A DNA stretch of 64,000 nt from Prevotella melaninogenica. Its GTDB lineage: Bacteria > Bacteroidota > Bacteroidia > Bacteroidales > Bacteroidaceae. The translations under genes and the position numbers were made by a program. The stretch spans positions 64,501 to 128,500 of the forward strand of contig NZ_CP072347.1 in the NCBI RefSeq assembly GCF_018127925.1. The letters are read 5' to 3'. Below the pieces are notes generated by a model. It saw only the letters and a program-made list of their open reading frames with translations. It was not told the origin of the DNA and made no database searches. Positions 14,551 through 33,744 of the stretch are shown here, in pieces (the stretch's first letter is position 1; every line of letters starts with the position of its first letter).

Positions 14551-14800
14551 GATTATTCTTTTCGGCATCTTTTAGTATGTCTTCTTATCAGTTTTAGTTG
14601 CTTTTTGTTCCTACCAATGGTTACTACATGAATTCTATAGCTACGGTAAACTTTATTAATTCATATCCTATAAGAAACCCATAGTTCTGAATTTTCTTTA
14701 CATCCACCATTGATTTATTTACCAAAAACAGCCAAAAAAACGCTTTCCTTACAGCCTTTGTAACTCATTCGTTATAAATAAGTTACAAAACCGCTTTTCA

Positions 14801-15349: not shown

Positions 15350-15531
15350 ACTTATAAGTTCTTTAAGTCATATTATTGCACAAAAGTAACTATTATAAGC
15401 TAAGGCTCGTATCTTTTAGTGTTAAACTATGTAAAACAAGTATCCTTTAAATGCTTTATTATCAGTATTACTTACCTCAAGGTAACTGGCTGACATTTGC
15501 GTGCCTACTTGCAGAACAGACTGAAAGTCAA

Positions 15532-15539
15532 TACCTTTG
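15532..15539 (+). promoter_or_regulatory. -7 box of the cupin operon
   Basis: TACCTTTG matches TAnnTTTG. A TTGC at 15509-15512 lies 19 bases upstream, at the -33 position. This supports the downstream ATG at 15579 over the in-frame codon at 15537, which overlaps the promoter. Confidence 0.6.
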
Positions 15540-15578
15540 CATCATCAAAACAAACAATACAATAAAACAAAAAGAATT

Positions 15579-16031
15579 ATGAAAACAGTTGAAACGATCA
15601 AGAATGGTAAGAACTTCACAGCAGTAAACGTTGGTAAGCTCAGCGATATTAAGGATTATGTACTCCCATTCGGAGAGATAGAGATTCCGGGTAAGGTATT
15701 CGTTGGTCAGGCATTACAGACGACAGGTAGCGAACTTTCATTCCAGACTCTTGTACCTGGTCAGGATAGTGGTTTCCTTCATACACACAAGACACACGAG
15801 GAACTTTACTTTATCCTCAAAGGCGAAGGTGAGTATCAGGTTGATGGCGAGGTCTTCCCTGTAACTGAAGGTAGTATTATCCGCGTTGCACCAGAGGGAA
15901 AACGTGCGTTGAAGAACATGGGCAAAGATGAGATGCTGATGCTCTGCATTCAGTATAAGGCAAACAGCTTTGCTGAGAATGATGCACCTATGACCGACGG
16001 TGTGATACTGAATGAAGAACTGAAATGGTAA
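15579..16031 (+). CDS. Cupin-domain protein
   Basis: 150 residues from the ATG at 15579, chosen because the upstream in-frame ATG overlaps the promoter box. One cupin_2 barrel is seen with the metal-binding motif 'HTHKTHEELYFILKGEG' and the second motif 'GSIIRVAPEGKRALKN'. Small cupins like this bind a metal and either isomerise or oxidise small molecules or sense them. It lies between an HxlR gene (divergent) and a second HxlR-like gene that overlaps its 3' end by 7 bp, suggesting a redox or electrophile-responsive unit. Confidence 0.88.
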   Translation: MKTVETIKNGKNFTAVNVGKLSDIKDYVLPFGEIEIPGKVFVGQALQTTGSELSFQTLVPGQDSGFLHTHKTHEELYFILKGEGEYQVDGEVFPVTEGSIIRVAPEGKRALKNMGKDEMLMLCIQYKANSFAENDAPMTDGVILNEELKW

Positions 16032-16330
16032 TTGACCCACTATTCCCTACGTGCCCGATACGTAATATCCTCTCACGGATATGCGTGGCGGACACGCTTT
16101 GCCTTATCCAAACGCTTGGTAGGAAAGGCAGAGCAACTTACGAAGAGTTAAGGCATGACCTGCCCGACTCTCCCCTATCCGCCTCGCTAAATATATTAAA
16201 AGAAGATCGGATTATTGTTGAAAGCGACAAACAATACGTCCTTTCAAACATTGGGAAAGAACTCTTTCCACTCATTTCAATGCTCATCGCTTGGTGTGAG
16301 AAGAACGTTTCCCCATCTCTAAGGCTATAG
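16025..16330 (+). CDS. Short HxlR-like winged-helix protein
   Basis: 101 residues. The N-terminus 'FPTCPIRNILSRI' is clearly paralogous to 'YPNCPIRNVLSRV' of the HxlR protein at 14981-15349. The helical core 'TYEELRHDLPDSPLSASLNILKEDRII' matches the HxlR recognition region, but the wing is shortened. It retains the conserved Cys. The ATG overlaps the cupin stop codon (ATGGTAA), which indicates translational coupling. It may be a partner or antagonist of the upstream HxlR protein. Confidence 0.75.
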   Translation: MVIDPLFPTCPIRNILSRICVADTLCLIQTLGRKGRATYEELRHDLPDSPLSASLNILKEDRIIVESDKQYVLSNIGKELFPLISMLIAWCEKNVSPSLRL

Positions 16331-16493: not shown

Positions 16494-19400
16494 TTACTTC
16501 TCCAACACTTTGAACTCAGCACCTGTTGCAAAGTCCTGACCAGACTGCTCACTGAGGGCTGTCAGACGGACGAAGCGGGCCTTAACCGGTGTGGTGAGGA
16601 GGATAGTCTTTTCCTTTCTGTTGTTCTCAAACTCACCTTCAGCAACAGCCTTACCCCATGTCTTGCCGTCGTTGCTAACCTGAATGCTGTACTTCTTGAT
16701 GTTACCATTGTTGCTGTCCTGACGTGGAAGGTAGGTGAAGCCCTTGATAGTCTTCATACCGCCACAGTCGAAGTCAACCCAGTGTGGGTGATTAGCCACT
16801 GTAACAGAGTACATTGTGTGCCAGTAACTGCTTGGGTTGCCATCGGTAAGATGACTTGCATCACCCTCACCACTCTCCTGACTTGAAGCGAAGACCACTG
16901 ACAATGGGATGCTCTCGATGCGTGAGAAGGTCTGAGAAGCTACAAGCCAATCATTCTCCTGCGCCCAAGCTGAGATAGTACCGCCATCGCGCAAGTTAAC
17001 AGGACCAGTGTACTTCACTGCCTTCTTGTTGCCATTAACACGATAGTAGATATCGCCCTTCGCACCGTTTGCATTGATCGTCACATTGCCCTCACCATCA
17101 CGGATGATAGTAAGTGGCGTAGCACCGTTAAGACTTACATTCGCATTGCTAACGAGGTCATTAGTCTTAACAGAGTTCATAGGACGAATCATATAACCAA
17201 AGGTGTGTGGCGTTGCCATGACACGATCGCGCAATAACGGACCACCCTGTCCACAACTGTTACCACCAAGACCAGTGATAGCCATATCAAGGTGCAAATG
17301 AGTGTATTCACTCTGTGGCAACTCGTGTGGATGGTTAGCCATTGCGATGGTATTATCCGACCAAGGAAGTGCAGAGAAACTCATCTTATCCTTAGCCACG
17401 AAGACAGCACCATAGAGGCCATTGTTACCAGTATTACCAGTGAGTGAGAGCCAACGAGTATCCTGATGGTTACCCGTATCCTGTGGTTTAGGGAAGGCAA
17501 CGAACTCATCCTCAACTTCCTGCTGCTCGTAGAGACCAATCATCTGACCTGTCTTGCGGTCTGGATAGTTGTCAACAGTACCACGACCATAGTAATTCAA
17601 CAGGCTGAGAGCCTTTGGAACACGAACTGTATAACCTAACTTAGCGAGTGTGAGATTAGGCTTATTGCTTGTTATTGCGCTCTCGCTCTCGATGCTACCG
17701 TCAGGGAAGATGGTATAAACCACCTGCGTATTGAAGCGGAAATCATCCTTACCGAATGGCTTTTCCTTGTATTCGATGAGCTTCTTCCAGTTGGCATTAC
17801 CACCCTCAAGGCGATAACCATAAGGTGCCTGTGACTCAACATTGAACACAACAGAAACAGAACCGTCAGCATTTGCGTGGGTTGTATAGTTAGTACACTT
17901 ATGCTGCAGGTTGTTCAAACCATTTGCATACCATCCTTCGTAAGCCCAGTTATCATTGTTAACCCATGCACGGAAAGCGTTCAACTCTGGTCCACAACCG
18001 TCTGCAATGATAGTCTTACCATCGTACTGGAGGTTATAAATCGTACCCTTTGTGAGGTCGAATGTCGTTGTGAAGGTCTTGCCAGAGAAGACTATCTTAT
18101 TGTCCTTTACGGCAGACATATTCACCTTACCTGCTGCAGCGATAGCTGGACGAGCCGCTGCTACCTGTACAGGCAACTGCTCTTCAGCCTGAACATATCC
18201 TGCCTTTGCCCATGGCATGTCATGCTTGAGGCGATAGGTAATGTGGAGGAGGTACTCCTTATTTGGGTCAAGACCCTCGTTGAGTCCTGCGATTGTAATG
18301 CTCTTATGACTTCTTGCTGGTACACTACCAAGCTCAAGGTCGCCCTTCTTAACGATTACACCATCAGCTGTCAGGCTATAAGACATTGCATAACCACTGA
18401 GATCATCAGAGTAGTAGTTCTTATTGAATACATCCAAAGTAGCTGTCTTAGCGTCCTTCCAGCTTGTTCCAATATACTGATACACCTTCTTCACCTCATA
18501 ATACTGTGGCTTTGGTGTCTCATCACCGAAGATAACACCGTTCATAACAAACTGTCCATCGTTAGGCGTATCACCGAAGTCACCACCATAAGCGAGGTAA
18601 CGCTTGCCGTCCTTTGTGTAGTTGTACATACTCTGGTCAATCCAGTCCCAGATAGCACCACCCATAAAGAAGTTCGTAGACTCCATTGCTTCCCAATAGT
18701 CAACGAGGTTACCTACAGCGTTACCCATTGAATGGGCATACTCTGAGATATGGAAAGGATACTTGATACCCATCTTACCCTTCACTGCATCGCGAGTCCA
18801 AGCAATACTTGGATACTGGTTAGAACCCATGTCCACGATGTCGTTGTTGCGCTCATACTGTACTGGTCTTGAAGCATCGTAAGCCTTCAGAGAGTCGTAG
18901 GCTACAACAAAGTTATGACCCGGTCCTGCCTCATTACCCAAACTCCAGATAACGATTGAAGGCTGATTAACAAGCTGGTGAGTCATTGCCATTACACGAT
19001 CAACGTGTGCTGCTTGGAACTCTGGTACGTGTGAAAGCGATGCCTTGCCATAGAAGTACTCATGACTCTCAATGTTTGCCTCGCTCTCCAAGTAGATACC
19101 ATATTTGTTGCAGAGATAATAGAAGTAAGGGTCGTTAGGATAATGAGAGGTACGTATGTGGTTGATATTCGCACGCTTCATCAGCATAATCTCATGTTCC
19201 ATCTGCTCACGAGAGATAACCTTACCTGTCAATGGGTTGGTATCGTGGCGGTTCACACCCTTGAGTTTCACTGGCTTACCATTGATATAGTAATATCTTC
19301 CAGCCAATCCGAACTCGTCCTGACTTGCTGGTGTATTCTTAATCTCAACTGTACGGAAACCAGTTTGGAAACTTATCGTTTCGACTACCCTCTTTCCCTG

Positions 19401-21917: not shown

Positions 21918-22403
21918 TTATAAGCTACTCTCTGACTGATGTTTCCAAAAGCGAGAAGTGATATCCTCAAAGCTTCCATCTGTGCAGCGGCGGTACATTC
22001 GTTGGTTAGTACGTGGGGAATCGAGTCCACCCAAATGGCGGAGGTAGGGGCCCACTTTGATATAGTCGAAATGCTGTTGATCGATGAGCGGAGAGATTGC
22101 CGTGCGCCCAGTGTACCAACCAACCTTCAAACCGTTGTAACGTTCTTGGACATATTTCGCAAGCAGGTCGACTTCCGCTGGGTCGCCATCGCCCCCCATA
22201 AAGCCCACACAGGTAATGGTATCTTTCGCATCATGAATCAGTGCAGACAGTGCTTCAGCCGTCAATTCATCTCCCCTATTTGCCCACAAGAACTGACTAT
22301 GGCAGCCCGGACAGCAACACGGACATCCCGAAATATTGATGGCAAGCGTCACCTCATCGGGAAACTCCTGAAAGACGATATCTGTATTAATATAACGAAG
22401 CAT
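21918..22403 (-). CDS. nrdG: Anaerobic ribonucleotide reductase activating protein
   Basis: 161 residues from the ATG at 22403; the frame extends upstream but 'MLRYINTDIVFQEFPDEV' is the usual start. The radical-SAM cluster is in 'GCPCCCPGCH' with the CxxxCxxC spacing, followed by 'FMGGDGDPAEV' and 'VGWYTGR'. NrdG uses S-adenosylmethionine and a 4Fe-4S cluster to make the glycyl radical on NrdD, allowing anaerobic dNTP synthesis. No nrdD is adjacent; the minus-strand upstream side holds a gene-free stretch and then the STAND operon, so nrdD may be elsewhere or separated by an insertion. Confidence 0.9.
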   Translation of the reverse strand: MLRYINTDIVFQEFPDEVTLAINISGCPCCCPGCHSQFLWANRGDELTAEALSALIHDAKDTITCVGFMGGDGDPAEVDLLAKYVQERYNGLKVGWYTGRTAISPLIDQQHFDYIKVGPYLRHLGGLDSPRTNQRMYRRCTDGSFEDITSRFWKHQSESSL

Positions 22404-22475
22404 TACTATCTGATTCTTTTTGCTGAACACGCTTATGCTCAAGTGATTATCTTCACCCACGCAACACCGTGTCAC

Positions 22476-23022
22476 CTCCTTTTATGTGAACGATTTTCTA
22501 TCCTACAAAGATATAAAGAAAGTATTAAACAGAGCAGACTTTATCTGGAATTATTGATAAAATTTGTAAAGTTTCATCTCTGTCTTTTAAGATCTGGAGT
22601 AAAAAAAAACCATTATATGCTGAGATAGAAGAACTTTAGATCGCGGAAACAGTGGGTATGGAACTGTACGAGAATAGTTATAATCTCGCTGTCCAACATA
22701 CAGCAGGCGTAGTTACGATGCAGCTTGCTGAACACTAGGAGCATGTACTTTTCAAACTTGGAAGTAAAATACTTGCAAAATCGTCAAATATACAGAATCA
22801 TTCTACTAAACTTGTATCACTCATAGGAGTGAATATTTCTTTACAACTATTTGATTTACAAACACAAAATTACAAAAACATCCTACTCACACAACTTTTT
22901 ATAGGTTTGCTTATACCGAACTTATTTGCAATAAAGTTTTGAACTGATTCAACGCTTTTTTCTAATTGCTTTTGTATCTATCACTCCCTTTATTTTTCCA
23001 TTTGTATACCGCATTTCACTCG
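22476..23022. other. Gene-free stretch between nrdG and the STAND operon
   Basis: No gene is supported. A plus-strand open run of about 33 codons at 22642-22738 has no start and was not recognised. The stretch is AT-rich and marks the right chromosomal edge of the 23-31.7 kb accessory block. Confidence 0.55.
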
Positions 23023-23796
23023 TTATTTGTCACGTTTATTCATTACAATCTCCACTCCGGCACTTAAGGATTTGATGGCTGAAGGTAGATGGATATTATC
23101 ATTACCGTCCTTTTCCAACGACGCAAGTACATCCCCTTGTCCGTTCTCCGAGAAGTGTTCATATTGCGAGAAATACTTGTAATAGTGATACAATCGTGTT
23201 GCCACTTTTTCGAGTTCAGGAATCCTAATCAAGAAGTTTGCAACATCTTTGGTCGTAATACTCTTCACTCTCGAAAAGCCCTCATCTTTCAATTGTTGTT
23301 TCGATTGCTTTTTTACCGTCAACTCCTCCAGATTATCTTCCAGTGTTAGCAGTCCCAAGAATTTATCTTCCATAGTTAACTCCCACAAATGGTCTATAAA
23401 GGCACCATCAAATATCTTTCTCGTACTTTTCACCTGATCTCTGTATACCTCTTTGCGCTCCAACATAGAGTTGGCATACTCTATTGTTCTCAGATCAAGT
23501 TCCTCGTAAGCTCGTTTCTTGCCGGCACGCTGTATGTATAGGGCGAACAAACAATCGGTAAAGCAACAACGCAACAACAATCCTATCGGTAACTGAAAAA
23601 ATGAAATCTTTCCAGTTTTCATGACCTGCGCAGTTAACAGCAGTGATGAATACAGATTTGAGTAGATACGGTATAACAGGAGTAGCTTAACCTTCTCAAC
23701 CCGTTCCAGTTCACCCTGTGAATGTCCTTTCCCGTACTTTTGAATCTTCTTCAGCAGGGTTAACTCTTCTGCTAACAGTTCTTTTATTTCAGTCAT
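23023..23796 (-). CDS. Helical protein of unknown function, last gene of the STAND operon
   Basis: 257 residues from the ATG at 23796, chosen because it overlaps the previous stop codon (ATGACTGA) in the usual coupled way; an ATG six codons upstream is also in frame. The protein is almost wholly alpha-helical, with a Leu/Cys-rich segment ('LPIGLLLRCCFTDCLFALYI') and a C-terminal 'YHYYKYFSQYEHFSENG' region. That region loosely resembles C-termini of DUF5677/HEPN-like proteins, but the similarity is weak and no catalytic motif is certain. Its place at the end of the operon suggests an effector or accessory role. Confidence 0.8.
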   Translation of the reverse strand: MTEIKELLAEELTLLKKIQKYGKGHSQGELERVEKVKLLLLYRIYSNLYSSLLLTAQVMKTGKISFFQLPIGLLLRCCFTDCLFALYIQRAGKKRAYEELDLRTIEYANSMLERKEVYRDQVKSTRKIFDGAFIDHLWELTMEDKFLGLLTLEDNLEELTVKKQSKQQLKDEGFSRVKSITTKDVANFLIRIPELEKVATRLYHYYKYFSQYEHFSENGQGDVLASLEKDGNDNIHLPSAIKSLSAGVEIVMNKRDK

Positions 23797-24076
23797 TATT
23801 GTGATTTTTTTCAAATTGTATCGGAGGTAAATATTTCATCCAGTCCATCATGTTGGCTAAATTGCGCATTCTTTCGTCTATATTGGCTATTTCTATTCTT
23901 CGGTTGGGAAGATACCGTGCATGTTCCAACGAGTCACCCAAAGCCCATGCACGGTTTGCCATGAAGGCTTTATCTCCGGCATGCTGCTCTAACTCGTCAA
24001 TCAGTAAAAACACATTATGCTCAAAGGCCGCTCTTGAATCAGGTGGCGGCATACCGTATTTACTTCTTTGTTTCAT
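23789..24076 (-). CDS. Small helical protein, paralogue of its upstream neighbour
   Basis: 95 residues from the ATG at 24076, which overlaps the end of the upstream gene. Its core shares with the 84-residue neighbour the pattern F-E-x3-LL, D-SL-x3-R, 'LPN-R' and 'I-DE-R'. No known family was recognised. The two genes are a tandem duplication that has diverged, and their products may form a heterodimer or act as adaptors for the STAND protein. That role is inferred from position only. Confidence 0.78.
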   Translation of the reverse strand: MKQRSKYGMPPPDSRAAFEHNVFLLIDELEQHAGDKAFMANRAWALGDSLEHARYLPNRRIEIANIDERMRNLANMMDWMKYLPPIQFEKNHNND

Positions 24077-24314
24077 CAAATTCTTTAAAAGGATTCATAA
24101 CCAACATGTGGAAAGTGGAACGCACAAATTCATCCACAGTATCCAGATTCAATCGTCCATTAGGCAGCATCTTTACTCTTGTTAAAGAATCAAACATATG
24201 CTCCATTTGGGCGGCAAAATTAATACGTTGTCCTTCTATACACTCTTTCAGCAAGTTTGCGCCTCGCTCAAAATCTCGCCTTCCCGGATATGATGACCTC
24301 AGATTCTTTGCCAT
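24060..24314 (-). CDS. Small helical protein, first of a tandem paralogous pair
   Basis: 84 residues, begins five bases after the stop of the split STAND gene and overlaps the next gene by 17 bp. It contains 'RRDFERGANLLKECIE', 'MFDSLTRVKMLPNGRLNLD' and 'VDEFVRSTFHML', which align along nearly the whole length with the downstream 95-residue protein. It is probably all-helical, with no signal peptide or membrane helix. The tight spacing shows that it belongs to the operon. Confidence 0.78.
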   Translation of the reverse strand: MAKNLRSSYPGRRDFERGANLLKECIEGQRINFAAQMEHMFDSLTRVKMLPNGRLNLDTVDEFVRSTFHMLVMNPFKEFDETKK

Positions 24315-24319
24315 TGCTA

Positions 24320-24919
24320 CTAGTCATTAATTGCATAATAAACCCTGTCTGCTCTCTTCATGTCAACTTTTCCATAGAGAACTTTGTTCAGAACAGCCTC
24401 CATTACCCTTCCGTATCTTCCTTTTGGTGCACTGCTTAGGTAAAAACTCCTCCTGACATACTTATCCGACTGATTCAGACAATCAAGTGTACCTTCTTTT
24501 CGTAACGTCCTAACAGCCTCTATATACGGCTTGGCGAAATCCTTTCCACCGGTCACCTGAAGGTTATTGAGTTTATCAATCTTATGGCTGATAAGAGGCA
24601 TGTCTTCAATGTCAATCATCACATCATCTCGATCTGGCATAGATGCCGGTATAATAGTCTTAATTCTTTCAAGTAGACTACTCTCGTCACATTGTCCAGA
24701 TAGAAGAGAACCTATCATATAAAGATTTCTAGAAATAGAGAAGTTCGGGATGTGACATAAGTTTTCTTGAATGTCACCATTCTGTAGATAGCTGCATACA
24801 ATTTTCGAATAATCCTTGGTGATTTCATGTAAAATCGCTGATGCAGCGACATCCAGCCCTGTCTCATCAGTTCGGAGTATTTCCGCAGTCAAGCATTTAA
24901 CCACCCTGTCATCATATCC
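24320..24919 (-). pseudogene. C-terminal piece of the split trypsin-STAND protein
   Basis: This open run is in the same frame as the piece at 24920-25684 and is separated from it only by a TGA (24920-24922). It codes for about 199 residues of helical repeat, reading 'GYDDRVVKCLTAEILRTDE' directly after the TGA. A GTG at 24904 could start a 194-residue product, but no start is needed if the TGA is a mutation or is read through. The sequence continues the HEAT-like pattern 'SRRAEESIIWL' found before the TGA, so it is best read as the end of one large protein. Confidence 0.75.
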
Positions 24920-25716
24920 TCACAACCATATTATACTTTCTTCTGCTCGTCTCGATATATTCCTATCCGGATGAATCAAGAACCAGATAAGGAAATGTAT
25001 CATCTGCTCATCTTTATTCTGTTCTTCGTGCGGTCCTACAAACCAAGTGAATTTATCTATTTGATACGGTGATGGCTGCACGTTAATATCATAATGTCCT
25101 ACTATAACATCAAACAACTGATTTTTTTCAAAATCGGGCATGCTAATAAGCGGAGTAATAAATTCGCTTAGCGAATACCAGTAACTTCCTATAGGTGATA
25201 CTATATCCTTTCTTTTCTCTTCAAGAATTCGCTTGCATGAAATCATACCAGCTAAGGCATCTTCTCTTTCGTATCGGCCTCTCTTCTTAGCTCTTCTTTT
25301 CCAAATATAGCCCACCTCCTTCAACGCTTGTTCAAAATCGTTTAGGATGTTGGCTGAGACGTTTGTTTCTTCCAAATCTGTCAGATAGGTACCTTTCTTA
25401 TCATAATAATAGTCATGTACGAAATACAAAGCCATTCGCTGAATCAAATCCGACTTTGCCCTTTCATCACCAAGCGCTGCTATAATCTCTGAATGAAGTT
25501 TGGCATATTGATGGTCATTATGCATCTTATCCCAGTTATACCAGAATAATTCGCTTAACGCATATCTAATGTATGGTGATACATCCTTACATTCCCGCAA
25601 CAACTGGCACATGGCACTGGCCTCTATCAGATGGTTACATCCGAGGTCATAGCCATCTCCCTTCTTGGCATGTCCACTTTCCAATCTTCTGCATTCGATA
25701 TAATTCTTTCTGACTC
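24920..25716 (-). pseudogene. Middle piece of the split trypsin-STAND protein
   Basis: The frame is open from 25716 and overlaps the end of the 1213-codon frame (stop at 25627) by about 90 bp in the -1 frame. It has no ATG near the overlap, only a TTG at 25684. It codes for alpha-helical repeat sequence ending 'SRRAEESIIWL' and then TGA. Supplying one missing base between 25627 and 25716 and reading through the TGA gives a 1650-codon gene from 29268 to 24320. A separate protein starting at the TTG cannot be excluded. Confidence 0.72.
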
Positions 25717-28700
25717 TGGCAATGTCTCAAACTTATAATAGGCAATAGCATCTGCCAATGAGGATGCATTTGCAATGGTTGCAACAAACTCGTTCTTTTC
25801 CTGTTGAACATAACGTTGGAAGGTCATCTCGCCTGAGGCTTCTTCAAATATCGCCGCCAAATGACCTATCTGGTCACCAGTGAGTTGAATACTATTTTTT
25901 CTGTACTCATTGATTAGCCCTATCTGGGCTTCCTTGTACCAATCTGGCCCCATAGAACTATTCAACATTTCCTGATAGGCAACTGCAACTTTCTCCTGTT
26001 CGCCCATACGTGCGTATTCCTGACACAGCCTGAGCAGATTTGTACAACGCTCACCCCTGTTCTGTACAGCATACTTAATATATTTAAAAACCTCCTCTGC
26101 TAGGAAAAGAGCTATATCTTTTGTCCTTGTATTACCATTGAATATGCCTGTCAATCTGATAAGTGAAGCACAGTAGCCTTCTCTATAAAGACATAACTGA
26201 TTAGGCATCCTGCTTTTCAGATGATCTATAAAATCGTTCAATTTGTCATCAAAGAACTTGCAGTACAATTCTGCCAGTTTATCATAAATAAACAGGAATA
26301 AATCTTCGGGCAGGAGATAACTCCGTAGCCAATGAATCCTAACCTCAAATGGGAAATCAATGCATTGCAGCACCTCATTCAACAGGCCGTATAACATGCT
26401 ATAGTCTTCACTTGCAGCACGTTTCCTGCATAGCATTCCGTCAAGATAAGCAATTCTCGCTATCAAGTGCTCAATATAGCCTTCCCATATTGTATCGCCA
26501 TAATAATCTCTGTTCACGTCTGGGCAAACGAGGCTATCATCTAAATAAGCCTTGTATAGACTCTCTTTATAGAAAGTAGCTAATGCTTTTGAATCAAGAT
26601 CTACACCATTACCATCCCGAAAAACTAACTTTCCGGGTTGGGGATTGTATTGGTTCAACAGTTTCTTAACAACGTCCACTTGGCTAGATTGGTCTACCAA
26701 AACCATTAGCAGAATATGTAAATCATTCTCTGAGAATACAAACGTATGGCTTGCCAATACTGTTTCAACCTGTTTCAAACAATCTTGGTATGCACTGTTG
26801 CGTCCTATCTTGTTTAGTCCAAGTTCTCTTTCATCGTACAGGGCTAATACTTTAACGAAAAGCATCAAGATCCTTTCGTCCCACCCCACCTTGAATGACT
26901 TCAGATATTTTTCAATAGGAATTTTCTTTTCCGAACGCAACTGATTAGACAACTGATAGGCAATAATAACATCCTGTACTGTATAGATAGCTTTAACAGA
27001 GTCTTCATCTTTTTTGTCCACAAGTTTTTGAAGTGTCTTAAAATAGCGAACTAAATCTGACGGTTCTTCTACGCCCGCCAAGATACCTTCAACTATCAAA
27101 AAACCCTTTGCAGCAAAAACAAATGGGTCTGCTCCTTTTTTCGATGTATCGCTGAGATCCTTTCTGATACAGGCCTCAATGGCGTCTGATAGCGTAAATG
27201 CTTGATCTTGATAATCTTTCTCAAACATTACTCGAAGATAATGGATAGCCGCCTGTAAACTTACTAAGAGTGTATGGTCCCTTACAATATATTTCATGGC
27301 GACATCTGGCTTACCCAAGAGGAAAGCCAATTCTGCAATTTCATCAACATTGTCCACCATGATAGAGTCATAGCGGTTTTCTATTCGCTGAGCAAGCAGC
27401 ATCAGTCTGATAACTTCCACGGCAAGACCTTGGTCAACAGCAAATGACAGACACTCTTTAATATCGTGCATTACCAAATCTGGCGACACGTCATGCCTAG
27501 CGCATTGATCCGCCCATACTTGGTTGCACATTGCAAGCCCTTTCTTCACATCACTGCCGTTAACCACATGATGCAAGTGGTTATCAATTGTATATCTGGA
27601 CTCAGGATGTGCCTCACAATATGCAGCTATTTGGTCGTTGGTGTAAATGATGACTGACATCAACTTATCTGTCACGAAGAGTCTGAACGAACTATGGTAG
27701 ATCTCATACACATCCTCGTCTTTCTCTTTCATCAGGTGGCGGAACTCCTTAGTGACCGACTTGAATTCATAGGGGGTCAATTGCTTCATCATTCCTAACA
27801 ACTGGGTTTCGTCAACCAGCCCACGGGTCTGTGATAATATCGCCATCACCTCCGTCACGATAGCGTTAGTCTCTGCCCTTTTCCAAATTGCTTCATAATA
27901 GGAACGGATGTTACCGTTGATGGTTGGCAAGCTATCCAACCATTCGTTCAATTGGCTCTCACGTGTCTCGTCGTCAAATGTGTCAGCTATATAGCGGCAT
28001 AGATAATTCATATACAGTGGATGCCCCTCCGTCTTATTCGCCACAGCCTGAACAAATGAGTAGGGCTTGTTCCACTCGCCACTGTTTGCTTGGATATACA
28101 ATTCACAGGCAGCTATGTCCAAAGGGGTAACTTCTATGTAGTTGTCTGGCGCTATCTTCTCTACAACTGTTGCAGGTAGTATCTCCTTGCTGATACACGA
28201 GAGTACGACGCTAATATTCTGCGGCATAGTTTCTGGCAGCAATGCTAAGAATTCACCAACTCGGTTCCGATTGTCATCTGCGAGCTCATCCAGACCGTCT
28301 ATAAAGAGGATACCCTGTTTGGCATCTAGGGAAAGCTCATTCCCAATAATATTAATCCATCTGGGTATTCTTTTTCTTCTTTCCTCAAATGATAGTTTTT
28401 CTATCTCTTCTCCCGTCTTGTTGATATATACCGTTTCAAGAAACTCTGCGAAGTGACTCTCTGAACATCTGACGGCTCGACTCAGCGGGTCATTAGGTAC
28501 TTTAAAGAAAAACCGGCCAATGACTTCTACATTATCGTTATCTGGTTCATAACCTGCAGCTAGTATCGTTTTACCACATCCCGGCGAACCGAATAAAAGC
28601 AACCAGTTACTGTTCTTTTCCCCGATCCTTTCATCCAATATTCCCATAACAGTGTGGTTGGGTTTAGACAATGCAACGTCATGGGCAATTGATTCTGGTA

Positions 28701-29268
28701 TATCGGTTAGTATTGTTTCCTCTTCCACGGAGATGCCATTTTCATGTAGGGCATTAATCAGTTTTCTAACACTAATAAAGGTTAGGTTATTGCCCGATTG
28801 TTCAATCACAACACCAACCACTTTTCCCTCTTGCAACACAGGCGCTCCTGACATACCGTCGTAGTCGAAAGCATCATCCACATTGTTTACTTGAATATTG
28901 ATGTCGCCAGTACCCTGTTGGTTCTTTTGCCTCACACTGCCATCAATTCTCATACCCCCATGCTTCGCAGCATAGGGGTACCCAAATGAGCTGACCAATT
29001 CCTTTACCCTGAGGGTATGCAGGAAAAGCGGCAAACTCTCTGATGTTGTGCGACCTTCTACTTTCAAGACCGAGATATCCAAATCTTCATAGTTTTTGAC
29101 AATGGTAAAGGTCATATCGCCGTCAGTTTCATCTTTTATAATATGCACACCTACCTCTTCAAAGGAAGAAACTGTGTGAAAGGCGGTCAATATGAGATTG
29201 GGAGCCACATAAAATGCAGTTCCGGCCTCGTTTCCACAGATACTCTGTACTACTAAGTTTTCTATCAT
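25627..29268 (-). CDS. Trypsin-like protease fused to a STAND NTPase (Avs1-like), 3' end frameshifted
   Basis: 1213 codons. Residues 1-165 are a trypsin-like domain with an intact triad: His31 ('LILTAFHTV'), Asp64 ('EDLDISVLKV') and Ser140 ('DGMSGAPVL'). Residues about 200-420 are a STAND/NACHT-type NTPase with Walker A 'GSPGCGKT' (227-234) and Walker B 'GILFIDGLDEL' (319-329). The rest is helical repeat, the usual sensor part of STAND proteins, and continues in two further pieces downstream. STAND proteins of the AVAST type bind phage proteins, oligomerise and switch on an attached effector. Here the N-terminal protease is the likely effector. The ATG is four bases after the MBL gene stop, so the two are co-translated. 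Confidence 0.88.
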   Translation of the reverse strand: MIENLVVQSICGNEAGTAFYVAPNLILTAFHTVSSFEEVGVHIIKDETDGDMTFTIVKNYEDLDISVLKVEGRTTSESLPLFLHTLRVKELVSSFGYPYAAKHGGMRIDGSVRQKNQQGTGDINIQVNNVDDAFDYDGMSGAPVLQEGKVVGVVIEQSGNNLTFISVRKLINALHENGISVEEETILTDIPESIAHDVALSKPNHTVMGILDERIGEKNSNWLLLFGSPGCGKTILAAGYEPDNDNVEVIGRFFFKVPNDPLSRAVRCSESHFAEFLETVYINKTGEEIEKLSFEERRKRIPRWINIIGNELSLDAKQGILFIDGLDELADDNRNRVGEFLALLPETMPQNISVVLSCISKEILPATVVEKIAPDNYIEVTPLDIAACELYIQANSGEWNKPYSFVQAVANKTEGHPLYMNYLCRYIADTFDDETRESQLNEWLDSLPTINGNIRSYYEAIWKRAETNAIVTEVMAILSQTRGLVDETQLLGMMKQLTPYEFKSVTKEFRHLMKEKDEDVYEIYHSSFRLFVTDKLMSVIIYTNDQIAAYCEAHPESRYTIDNHLHHVVNGSDVKKGLAMCNQVWADQCARHDVSPDLVMHDIKECLSFAVDQGLAVEVIRLMLLAQRIENRYDSIMVDNVDEIAELAFLLGKPDVAMKYIVRDHTLLVSLQAAIHYLRVMFEKDYQDQAFTLSDAIEACIRKDLSDTSKKGADPFVFAAKGFLIVEGILAGVEEPSDLVRYFKTLQKLVDKKDEDSVKAIYTVQDVIIAYQLSNQLRSEKKIPIEKYLKSFKVGWDERILMLFVKVLALYDERELGLNKIGRNSAYQDCLKQVETVLASHTFVFSENDLHILLMVLVDQSSQVDVVKKLLNQYNPQPGKLVFRDGNGVDLDSKALATFYKESLYKAYLDDSLVCPDVNRDYYGDTIWEGYIEHLIARIAYLDGMLCRKRAASEDYSMLYGLLNEVLQCIDFPFEVRIHWLRSYLLPEDLFLFIYDKLAELYCKFFDDKLNDFIDHLKSRMPNQLCLYREGYCASLIRLTGIFNGNTRTKDIALFLAEEVFKYIKYAVQNRGERCTNLLRLCQEYARMGEQEKVAVAYQEMLNSSMGPDWYKEAQIGLINEYRKNSIQLTGDQIGHLAAIFEEASGEMTFQRYVQQEKNEFVATIANASSLADAIAYYKFETLPESERIISNAEDWKVDMPRREMAMTSDVTI

Positions 29269-29272
29269 GACA

Positions 29273-30409
29273 TTATATTGTTATTGTGATACCTTTATCG
29301 CCTTCAGGCATAATCACATCGAAATCATGTCCCTCGTGATAATCAGGCTTCAATAGCTCTTGACATACAGGTAATGGATAGTTGAAATATAATTGATTGT
29401 TCACTCCAGATGTTATGATATGTGCCAAAGTAGGCATATCAGGATGGTTATACTTATCACCCTTCGTAGATATCAACCATTTGTCTGAAACTATCAAACT
29501 AAACAACTCTGGCGAATTGTTGTTATAGGAACCATGATGAGATAGTTTCACCGCATCAAATTTATAGGGTGCTTTCTCTTCACAGTAAAGGGTCCTCAGA
29601 GAAGCTACCACAGTTTCCGCATGTGAATCACCTAAAAACAGTAATCTCTTTCCTTCTGTCTCAAGCACGAATGAAATGGAGCTGCCCTTACTTGCTGAGC
29701 TGTCAGGTTCGTAAGCCTCTTTACACAACATAAGCAAATCATAACTCTTAGATACCTTTTTCTCATGAAAATGAAATCCAGGCATATCTTTGCTAATACT
29801 AAACTCATAAGCATCATCCCAGTACTCTTCACTGTGAGCCTTTTTAAGCAATCCATCCTTAATCAGTCTTTTCTTCCAAAAACTTTCAAGGGCTTCTATA
29901 TCCTCATTATTTGGAGAAAGAACGTGAATGATAGCATCTCCTAACGGGAAGGTCATTGGGGCCATAATGGTATAACCTTTCGACGGTGTATTCCATGAAA
30001 TCCCGTTTTTTGCTATAAGTGCAGACAAGGTACACCCCTGTTTTGCACTAATTGTTTTTGCTCTCTCCGCTTGACACTCTTTGGATATATTTCTATGAAC
30101 AAACGTTTCTTTTTCTGCCACAGTGACAGCCACAGACTGAATATGTCTGTAACCATTATACCATATTTCTCTTATCCCAATAGGCATATCTTCCATCATC
30201 CTGATGATGCCAGAGATATGGTCACCGTCTATATGGGTCACAACTACTACATCAAGTTCACCTCCTCGCGCTGCAATTTCTTTTAAAGTAGGTAAAAGAT
30301 AGTTCTCGTATGTATCTACGTATCCTCCATCAATGAGCATATAATGAGATAGCTGGAATTCCACCAGAATACAATCTCCATTGAATGCCGGAAGAATGAT
30401 AATTCTCAT
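29273..30409 (-). CDS. Metallo-beta-lactamase-fold hydrolase of the STAND operon
   Basis: 378 residues from the ATG at 30409 (a start four codons upstream is also possible). It is an MBL-fold protein of the ComEC-C-terminal type without membrane segments: 'AFNGDCILVEF', 'LIDGGYVDTY', the metal motif 'THIDGDHISG' (HxDxDH), 'LLFLGDSHAE' and 'KLSHHGSYNN'. All metal ligands look present. Such domains hydrolyse nucleic acids or nucleotides. In AVAST type I an MBL protein accompanies a trypsin-like protease and a STAND NTPase, and the same trio is seen here. It is the first gene of the tight minus-strand cluster. Confidence 0.9.
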   Translation of the reverse strand: MRIIILPAFNGDCILVEFQLSHYMLIDGGYVDTYENYLLPTLKEIAARGGELDVVVVTHIDGDHISGIIRMMEDMPIGIREIWYNGYRHIQSVAVTVAEKETFVHRNISKECQAERAKTISAKQGCTLSALIAKNGISWNTPSKGYTIMAPMTFPLGDAIIHVLSPNNEDIEALESFWKKRLIKDGLLKKAHSEEYWDDAYEFSISKDMPGFHFHEKKVSKSYDLLMLCKEAYEPDSSASKGSSISFVLETEGKRLLFLGDSHAETVVASLRTLYCEEKAPYKFDAVKLSHHGSYNNNSPELFSLIVSDKWLISTKGDKYNHPDMPTLAHIITSGVNNQLYFNYPLPVCQELLKPDYHEGHDFDVIMPEGDKGITITI

Positions 30410-30485: not shown

Positions 30486-31739
30486 TCACACCTCCATCAG
30501 CCACTTCCACACTGACACCACGGGTATTCCCTCTTCCGTGCCCTCCTCATCATACGTAATCAATAGGCACTTCCAGTCCTGGTGCGCCTTGGCATACTTC
30601 ACCAGTGGCGGCACCTCCCTATTGTAGGTGGTCGCATCCTTGATGCTGTAAGACACTTGTATAGCCAACTTCTCGTCGGGTACAATGAAGTCTATCTCCT
30701 TCTCCGCATTCAGGTAAAACACATTCTTTTTGCCATACCGCCTACACAGTTCCACCGCCACCATATTCTCCAATAGCGATGTCTCTGAATTCATCAGGAA
30801 CAGGTTCAGTAAACCGTTATCAACAAAGTAGTACTTCTTCTGCGTCTCCTTCTCCGTCAGTTTCCCTATCTCATTCTCCATGGGCAATATCAGCCAACTG
30901 TCAGCGGCATAATCCGCATAGTCTATCGTAGTGGGCACACTGATGGGCGATCCCGTTGCCACTATCACATTCTTCAGCCTGTTATACGACAGCGGTTGCT
31001 TTACGCTTTCTGCCATCTTCTTAATCAGAATATTCAACACCCTATCATTCTTAATATTATTTCGGGCACAGATGTCACCCAAGTAGATCTTCTGGTACAA
31101 ACTCGAAAGCATAGCCCGCTTGTTCTTAAACGAAAGGATCTCTGGCAGACCACCGTAATAGAAGTACTCATTCAGATGTCGCTTCACTTCACTTCGCTGA
31201 ATTGTATCATACTCCCAATGCTCCCTCAGTTCCACCTGCTGCGCTGTCAGATACTCTTTGAAAGAATATGGGTACGCATCGTAAATAAAGAACCGTCCGC
31301 CCAACGTAGTTGCCACCTCTTTACTCAGCATCTTCGCATTGCTGCCCGTCACATACACCCTGTATTTCGCATCAGCCAACCTGCGCACGAACTTATCCCA
31401 ATACGGAATGTTCTGCACCTCGTCCAAAAATACCACTGGCTTTTTACCATACAGTTCCAGATGGGCTTCCAGCAAACTGTTAAAGTCTTCCGGTTGGAAT
31501 TCCGCCAGACGTTCATCTTCAAAATCCACAAACAGAATCTCATCCCATCCCTTTCCTGCTGCCTGCAGTTGTCGCACACGCTGATACAGCAGATACGACT
31601 TACCCGCATGTCTCACGCCAACTATCACATAATTGCCATTCTCTTCAAAGTCTGTAGGACGGTTCACAAGTACCGCCTCATCCACTTCGCGCTGTTTACT
31701 AATCAGGCACTGTTTGATGACATCTTTACTAACACCCAT
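30486..31739 (-). CDS. AAA ATPase with DUF4143-type C-terminal domain
   Basis: 417 residues. An N-terminal AAA_14-type ATPase has Walker A-like 'GVRHAGKSYLL' and Walker B 'PVVFLDEVQNI', followed by 'VYVTGSNAKML' and 'TLGGRFFIYDAYPYSF'. The C-terminal DUF4143-type part has 'EIDFIVPDEKLAIQVSYSI', which fits a PD-(D/E)XK-like fold. These proteins are abundant in Bacteroidetes and their role is uncertain. The gene lies 76 bp upstream of the MBL gene in the same direction, so it may be co-transcribed, but the family often occurs alone. Confidence 0.88.
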   Translation of the reverse strand: MGVSKDVIKQCLISKQREVDEAVLVNRPTDFEENGNYVIVGVRHAGKSYLLYQRVRQLQAAGKGWDEILFVDFEDERLAEFQPEDFNSLLEAHLELYGKKPVVFLDEVQNIPYWDKFVRRLADAKYRVYVTGSNAKMLSKEVATTLGGRFFIYDAYPYSFKEYLTAQQVELREHWEYDTIQRSEVKRHLNEYFYYGGLPEILSFKNKRAMLSSLYQKIYLGDICARNNIKNDRVLNILIKKMAESVKQPLSYNRLKNVIVATGSPISVPTTIDYADYAADSWLILPMENEIGKLTEKETQKKYYFVDNGLLNLFLMNSETSLLENMVAVELCRRYGKKNVFYLNAEKEIDFIVPDEKLAIQVSYSIKDATTYNREVPPLVKYAKAHQDWKCLLITYDEEGTEEGIPVVSVWKWLMEV

Positions 31740-32412: not shown

Positions 32413-33744
32413 TTACAGGCTCTCTGGAATCTGTTTCTTCGGACTGATACCTAATGTTTTTAATCCTTCTAATCGACGGACAATGTTTCCCTTACCCTCG
32501 TTTAGCTGACCCTTCGCCCTGCTGAAATCCTGCTGTAGGCGTTCGATGTCGGCACCTAACTTTACGAAAGTCTCTGCAAAGGTGACGAACTTATCGAAGA
32601 GTTCGTTTGATTGGTGTAGGATTTCCTCTACATTCTTTGTCATACGGAAGTTCTGCCACATCGTGTGTGTCAGCTGCAGAGCCATGAGAAGATTGCTTGG
32701 ACTCAGAATGATAATATGCTTACGATAAGCGTATTGCAAGATAGATGGGTCGGTCTTCAAGGCTGCAGAATAGCCACTTTCGTAAGGGACGAACATCAGT
32801 ACAAAACCAATACAGCCCGGTACAAGTTTCTCGTAGTTCTTAGCCGACAGTTCGTCGACATGCTTCTTGATAGAGGAAACATGTTCCTTCAAATAGCGTT
32901 CACGCTCCGTAGCATCTTCTTCTCTGATTGCTGCCTGATAAGCCGTCAATGAAACCTTAGCATCTATCACGGCACGTTCTTCGTTCGGGAAGACAATCAC
33001 GGCATCTGGTCGGAAGTTATTACCGTCCTTATCTTTGTAGTTCTCTTGCAGAAAATACTGTTGCCCCTGAATAAGACCGCAGTCTTCCAACGTCTTATCG
33101 AGAATCATCTCACCCCAATCGCCCTGCATCTTAGAGTCACCTTTAAGGGCTTGTGTGAGCGAAGCAGCATCATTACCGATACGTTCCGTTTGTTCACGCA
33201 GTTCCTTCACCGCCCGTTCTTGATTCTCGCGCATCGCCTTGATGGTCAGTTCCTGCTCCGCATGAAGACGTTTCATCGCCTCCTCGAAGGTCGTTTTAAT
33301 CTCTGTTTTATTGGCAGTATTCTCCTTACTGTTGTTTGTAACAGTCTGATTAAAAGCCTCTAAACGCTCTTTTAGTGGCGAGAGGAGAGCGTCCAAACGT
33401 TCTTTATCAGCCGTATTCATCTTCTCCCGACTCTCATCCAACATCTGAGCAGCCATATTGCGCACCTCTTCCTGCAGGAGTCGGTTCTTCGCTTCAGCCT
33501 GCTTCTGGAGTTCGTTGCGTAGCTGTTCGCCATGCTTTCGCTCTGCCTCAAGTTGCTGTAAAGCATTCTCTTTCACCACCGCAATACGTTCGTCAACATT
33601 CTTTCGTTCTGTTTCAAGTTGACTACGGAGGACCGCTAATTGCTCACCAGCATTCTTTTGTTCCTGTGTTGATTTGTTCTTCATCCAGAGGAACATGATA
33701 CTTGCACCGATGATGATACCGAGAAGTAGATAAATTATTGCCAT
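32413..33744 (-). CDS. rmuC: DNA recombination protein RmuC
   Basis: 443 residues. One N-terminal membrane helix (about 2-20) and a long coiled coil (about 25-190) are followed by the RmuC domain with 'KGDSKMQGDWGEMILDKTLEDCGL', 'FRPDAVIVFPNEERAVIDAKVSL' and 'PYESGYSAAL'. RmuC belongs to the PD-(D/E)XK superfamily and limits inversion at short repeats in E. coli. Recent work on relatives links it to defence against foreign DNA. It is monocistronic with a strong terminator. Length and domain order are normal. Confidence 0.94.
   Translation of the reverse strand: MAIIYLLLGIIIGASIMFLWMKNKSTQEQKNAGEQLAVLRSQLETERKNVDERIAVVKENALQQLEAERKHGEQLRNELQKQAEAKNRLLQEEVRNMAAQMLDESREKMNTADKERLDALLSPLKERLEAFNQTVTNNSKENTANKTEIKTTFEEAMKRLHAEQELTIKAMRENQERAVKELREQTERIGNDAASLTQALKGDSKMQGDWGEMILDKTLEDCGLIQGQQYFLQENYKDKDGNNFRPDAVIVFPNEERAVIDAKVSLTAYQAAIREEDATERERYLKEHVSSIKKHVDELSAKNYEKLVPGCIGFVLMFVPYESGYSAALKTDPSILQYAYRKHIIILSPSNLLMALQLTHTMWQNFRMTKNVEEILHQSNELFDKFVTFAETFVKLGADIERLQQDFSRAKGQLNEGKGNIVRRLEGLKTLGISPKKQIPESL

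Follow-up and report, generated by a model that had tools for sequence, protein, structure and literature searches.

The block of genes on the minus strand from 30409 to 23023 in the window (the whole stretch of Prevotella melaninogenica DNA analysed, 64,000 nucleotides from contig NZ_CP072347.1) is, judged by homology, an AVAST type I (Avs1) system. It probably represents a decayed and mosaic operon of the Bacteroidota branch of this type, ending in a gene, here called D, that would be an accessory gene found at the 3' end of various defence systems. Avs1 itself is known in kind, and the new part is gene D together with the slot that the operon occupies. All of the gene products described in the earlier note, namely an MBL-fold protein, a trypsin-like domain joined to a STAND NTPase, two small paralogues and a 257-aa protein, were recovered when the open reading frames of this strand were read (Table 1). 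A 4 bp gap separates the end of Avs1a from the start of Avs1b, and the Avs1c1 and Avs1c2 genes overlap. The nrdG and rmuC genes named as the flanks are both present, the match of the latter being below the naming cut-off, but an AAA_14/DUF4143 ATPase gene sits between the block and rmuC. The GC content from 20 to 35 kb (0.38-0.44) is not unusual.

Table 1. Features of the Avs1 block and its surroundings, in coordinates of the window
Feature	Coordinates	Strand	Remarks
NrdG-type gene	21918-22475		TIGR02826, 181 bits, above cut-off
Relic related to start of 320-aa ORF of L094 (3925-4887)	22626-22922		75% identity; ORF transposase-like by eye
Gene E relic, 5' end	22929-23018	-	~90 bp, 87% identity; E open after D in L025 and L100
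Gene D, 257 aa	23023-23796	-	No significant family match; start overlaps Avs1c2 stop
Avs1c2, 96 aa	23789-24079	-	Profile matches, tree; within separate last-copy lineage
Avs1c1, 84 aa	24060-24314	-	Profile matches, tree
Avs1b, third open piece (C-terminal end)	24320-24919	-	Same frame as second piece
Avs1b, second open piece	24920-25684	-	Other frame than first part; in-frame stop at end
Avs1b, first open part, 1213 aa	25627-29268	-	Trypsin, STAND/NACHT NTPase, beginning of C-terminal part
Avs1a, MBL-fold gated pro-nuclease	29273-30409	-	Open; family profiles and alignment
Exchanged tract (Avs1a end, whole Avs1b, Avs1c1)	24050-29450	-	Probable
AAA_14/DUF4143 ATPase, left flank of slot	30486-31739	-	Within blocks shared with L025, L028 and L094 (86.6-90% nt identity)
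RmuC-like gene	32413-33744		NF007686, E = 3e-55, below naming cut-off

The earlier assignment to AVAST type I was borne out by profile matches. PADLOC profiles matched Avs1a (E = 4.5e-83), Avs1b (1.7e-182) and both Avs1c proteins (2e-7 and 1.5e-8), and NCBIfam models matched the same proteins (8e-104, 4e-185, and 1e-14 and 3e-12, respectively). The NCBIfam bit scores were all below the curated cut-offs (347 against 420 for Avs1a, 618 against 1500 for the first part of Avs1b, 54 and 47 against 70 for Avs1c), which are naming thresholds and not a defining part of the system. Avs1a also matched the LmuA model (6.2e-88) and the RTasMBL model in PADLOC. In an alignment with four plasmid reference systems, the HxDxDH motif of Avs1a and the trypsin residues His31/Asp64/Ser140, Walker A (GSPGCGKT) and Walker B (LFIDGLDE) of Avs1b fell in invariant or conserved columns. 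The components expected by homology were thus all found, with an Avs1a carrying the metal motif upstream of a trypsin-STAND Avs1b and two copies of Avs1c downstream.

Residues 6-1199 of Avs1b align with positions 10-1207 of the 1924 in the PADLOC profile. The fusion of protease and NTPase had been proposed as a novelty, but the Avs1b profile (1924-1931 positions) already combines trypsin with STAND and the two are encoded by one gene in the four plasmid systems, therefore fusion is the normal state of Avs1. The Avs1 of Erwinia piriflorinigrans (locus L081) and those on plasmids of Priestia, Vibrio, Cupriavidus and Chimaeribacter (L016-L019, annotated wholly or partly as AVAST type 1) share the gene order a-b-c, the fused trypsin-STAND protein, the MBL metal motif and the gate Ile with the window. 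However, they have one Avs1c where the window has two, and gene D was not found in them. The annotated plasmid Avs1b proteins are also longer (~1910-1940 aa) than those of close relatives of the window, where the open frame has 1642-1665 codons, the window copy being broken.

A genome scan with an Avs1b alignment gave 66 loci out of 84 pattern matches, and a scan of viral sequences gave one locus, which appears to be the L051 element again. Together with the four plasmid systems, the survey comprised 71 loci besides the window. All four plasmid references and 60 of the 66 genome loci have the genes on one strand in a-b-c order; of the exceptions, L066 is without Avs1a, and the other five (L029, L047, L053, L075 and L084) run into the end of the stored contig. 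In L066 (1-4454), Avs1b lacks the N-terminus and no Avs1a was seen despite 4.4 kb of upstream sequence, so this is probably a truncated locus. In L026, a D-less close relative, Avs1 is directly followed by matches to Kiwa KwaA (15460-16071) and KwaB (16068 onward), and a near-copy of this KwaA gene is present in L029 (4525-5136).

The two small genes had been regarded as extra parts of the operon, but both match Avs1c, which is a known component. Two copies of Avs1c (E < 1e-4) were found in 24 and three in six of the 30 loci assigned to Bacteroidota by their record labels, though some loci are closely related to each other and these counts are therefore not independent events. Of the other 41 loci, 39 carried one Avs1c, L053 carried none (its contig ends inside Avs1b) and L029 carried two. 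The L029 contig is labelled Lachnospiraceae and its Avs1 locus is nearly identical to the Bacteroidales locus L026, hence misbinning is suspected, or else a very recent transfer. A tree of 77 Avs1c copies (70 from loci with at least two, including the window and L029, and seven chosen single copies; 90 columns) placed 27 of 32 last copies on one side of a branch (support 90/91), suggesting that the duplication is old, though many forks in this short alignment were unresolved. A description of the function of the two Avs1c proteins was found nowhere.

No significant match to gene D was found in Pfam, NCBIfam, PHROGs, PADLOC or PDB sequences. The predicted structure is all-helical with medium confidence (pLDDT 60), and dN/dS values of 0.09-0.44 for 28 pairs from eight loci (leaving out L101) indicate purifying selection. 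Only four of the 71 other Avs1 loci (L023, L025, L027 and L028) carry D, and it is absent from the close relatives L024 and L026. Direct searches for D found it in 1 of 295 genomes of the order (single-sequence query), in 5 of 248 relatives (three convincing), in 6 of 398 genomes of the genus and in 6 of 211 of the family (three convincing); these sets overlap, and nine distinct D loci were found in all. A weak match of the D profile in L107 (8733-9560) appeared by eye to be a LytTR-type regulator and was set aside as a chance match.

In five of the nine loci (the window, L023, L025, L027 and L028), D follows Avs1, a proportion that becomes three of seven when only finds from searching D itself are counted. 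In L094, it follows an MBL gene and a trypsin-Avs2 gene with ~300 bp between, in L095 it lies 30 bp after DSR2 (SIR2; PADLOC 7.9e-140), and in L100 it follows AbiEi/AbiEii. In both L095 and L100, D is directly after the system and in the same orientation, as in the window, though their sensors and effectors are unrelated to those of Avs1 and D is all that they have in common with it. A distant form, 33% identical, was found in L101, where it comes after TssR and closes a type VI secretion cluster. Linkage of the 257-aa gene to Avs1, as proposed earlier, is thus seen in five loci, but D does not define an Avs1 subtype because it also follows other systems, and it would instead be an accessory gene that different defence systems carry at their 3' end. 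The idea that D tunes the preceding system, whichever that is, or serves as its backup is a guess, and the weakest of our inferences.

For D to be a passenger is no less likely than for it to act with its neighbours. D could be part of an independent unit, either a single-gene or D-E defence or one resembling a toxin-antitoxin pair, that merely lies downstream of defence genes, and we give this possibility a little under an even chance. It is favoured by the variable spacing between D and the upstream gene outside Avs1, and by a further gene, E (609-615 aa), which follows D, open or as a relic, in six of the eight close D loci. E is open in L025 and L100, with relics in the window, L023, L028 and L094; neither gene nor relic was seen in L027 or L095, and L101 has only a 20-bp match, far off and on the other strand. 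However, plasmid homologues of E occur without a recognisable D (none with the profile up to an E-value of 10; six of eight matched records), and D remains open and under purifying selection even where E has been lost. The match of E to Pfam DUF4365 (0.075-0.097) is below the cut-off, and some of the plasmid homologues are annotated as DUF4365, which is named as a nuclease domain in PMC10810196. In the window, the transposase-like relic adjoins the E relic and possibly marks the event that took out E.

The single open Avs1b frame that a working AVAST type I system needs was not found in the window. The first open reading frame stops at 25627, following a frameshift near 25.65 kb, and the homologous continuation, which lies in the other frame, is interrupted at 24920 by an in-frame stop, the last open piece reaching 24320. 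Since Avs1b is one open frame spanning all three of these pieces in five relatives (L023, L024, L026, L027 and L028), the window copy is broken, unless the breaks are sequencing errors, which they could be. The trypsin-STAND gene is as first described in its conserved catalytic triad and Walker motifs, but it is not intact. Avs1b was in more than one open piece, by one threshold, in L025, L033, L078 and L085 among 72 loci, and beyond that threshold further broken copies are those in the window, L044 (interrupted) and perhaps L079. In L044, a Bacteroidales MAG, Avs1b ends at 14680 and a homologous C-terminal piece resumes at 17134, as if by an insertion. Two breaks in Avs1b should have left the sensing arm dead. 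Avs1a, D and both Avs1c genes are still open, and from the sequence the Avs1 system in the window appears to be decayed and inactive.

It is improbable that the operon is instead a functional new AVAST type I subtype that requires D and the paired small genes and whose Avs1b works as split polypeptides or via recoding. The same overlap of D with Avs1c2 in all five D-bearing Avs1 loci and the presence of at least two Avs1c copies in 30 of 30 Bacteroidota loci would fit such a subtype, but the rarity of D among Avs1 loci, its absence from close relatives, its occurrence with other systems and the single open Avs1b frame of the five relatives all argue against it. Inspection by eye also revealed no slippery-looking sequence at the Avs1b break.

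In the predicted structure of EpiAvs1a from E. piriflorinigrans, two insertions block the active site (PMC12799240). Mutation of either of two conserved Ile residues reduced defence and mutation of both eliminated it, infection led to a product matching cleavage next to Ile134, and the trigger of this system was the terminase (PMC12799240). When 67 Avs1a proteins were aligned (23 rows printed), Ile120 of the window Avs1a matched the residue taken as Ile134 of EpiAvs1a, a numbering obtained from the ORF in L081, and this column contains Ile in 65 proteins, including that of the window, and Val in two. At the position taken as the second gate, the window protein has Val (a residue seen in 17 of the 67, against Ile in 42), so a second cut site may be absent or altered. 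Cleavage and gate residues have been shown for EpiAvs, and homology and the conserved residues suggest that gate cleavage also applies to Avs1 of the window type. In an intact relative, a phage protein would be bound by the C-terminus of Avs1b, after which the STAND ATPase would form oligomers. Cleavage of the Avs1a gate loop beside the conserved Ile by the fused trypsin domain would then release a DNase that would kill or arrest the cell.

Identity between the window and the other four D-bearing Avs1 loci was not uniform. Avs1a (80-83%), Avs1c2 (88-92%) and D (84-91%) are closely related, whereas the trypsin part (48-49%), the NACHT part (63%) and the rest of the first Avs1b part (59-60%) as well as Avs1c1 (55-62%) are not, with identity falling near 29450, inside Avs1a, and rising near 24050 at the Avs1c1/c2 junction. 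Synonymous divergence (pS) from these loci was 0.13-0.35 for Avs1a codons 1-318, 0.16-0.22 for Avs1c2 and 0.15-0.45 for D, and inside the tract it was 0.84-0.90 for Avs1a codons 335-378, 0.83-0.84 for the first part of Avs1b (three relatives, the broken Avs1b of L025 having been excluded) and 0.80-1.00 for Avs1c1. The D-less locus L024 gave pS of 0.67-0.93 throughout. In the Avs1a tree, the window groups with the four D-bearing loci (99/99), and in the Avs1b tree it lies outside them, though the branch setting the window apart from L024 and the other D-bearers has support of only 80/80.

Judged by synonymous divergence, which places the borders, the window operon is a mosaic. This is most simply explained if the Avs1b-Avs1c1 unit and the last ~45 codons of Avs1a were exchanged by homologous recombination, such that the body of Avs1a, Avs1c2 and D would have been kept while a sensor unit from another lineage came in. 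The pattern suggests a pairing of Avs1c1 with the sensor Avs1b and of Avs1c2 with the conserved rest. Rapid diversifying selection in place of recombination is very unlikely to account for the low identity of Avs1b and Avs1c1, as, although sensor C-termini such as that of Avs1b are expected to diversify, synonymous sites are saturated only inside the tract and one border lies within Avs1a.

The locus with the Avs2-type system has related flanks. L025 and L094 share a left side of 76-87% nt identity in three pieces (~4.5 kb in total, including the DUF4143 ATPase gene) and D at 93%, and the sequence between is Avs1 in L025 and protease-Avs2 in L094. The window and L094 likewise have the ATPase (90% nt) and D (90.6% nt) in common, and both combine an MBL protein with a trypsin-STAND protein. 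However, the STAND protein of L094 matches Avs2 (PADLOC 4.6e-115) and no Avs1c was found in this system, while its MBL protein matches LmuA (3.6e-49) and shares 24-25% identity with Avs1a; a residue other than Ile occupies the gate position in the alignment with Avs1a, which is unsure there. In L094 (7148-12344), the gene after that for the MBL protein codes for a trypsin-STAND fusion of Avs2 type (1335 aa); Avs2 does not occur in the main text of PMC12799240. The Hachiman, Lamassu and DRT nuclease-protease pairs described there also consist, like the window system, of an MBL pro-nuclease and a protease-fused partner, but with different sensor proteins (PMC12799240).

We tentatively propose, as a possibility less likely than its converse, that there is, in this Bacteroidales group, a chromosomal slot consisting of the DUF4143 ATPase gene, an interchangeable nuclease-protease-sensor system, D and E. 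Exchange of phage sensors would involve either part of an operon (Avs1b together with Avs1c1) or a complete system (Avs1 in exchange for protease-Avs2), and D would be the common partner of unrelated phage-sensing systems.

The duplication of Avs1c in all of the Bacteroidota loci surveyed bears on how annotation models count the parts of Avs1, and the exchanged tract is a natural experiment that offers a testable split of roles for Avs1c1 and Avs1c2. If D acts alike with Avs1, protease-Avs2 and DSR2, unrelated immune receptors of bacteria would have this component in common.
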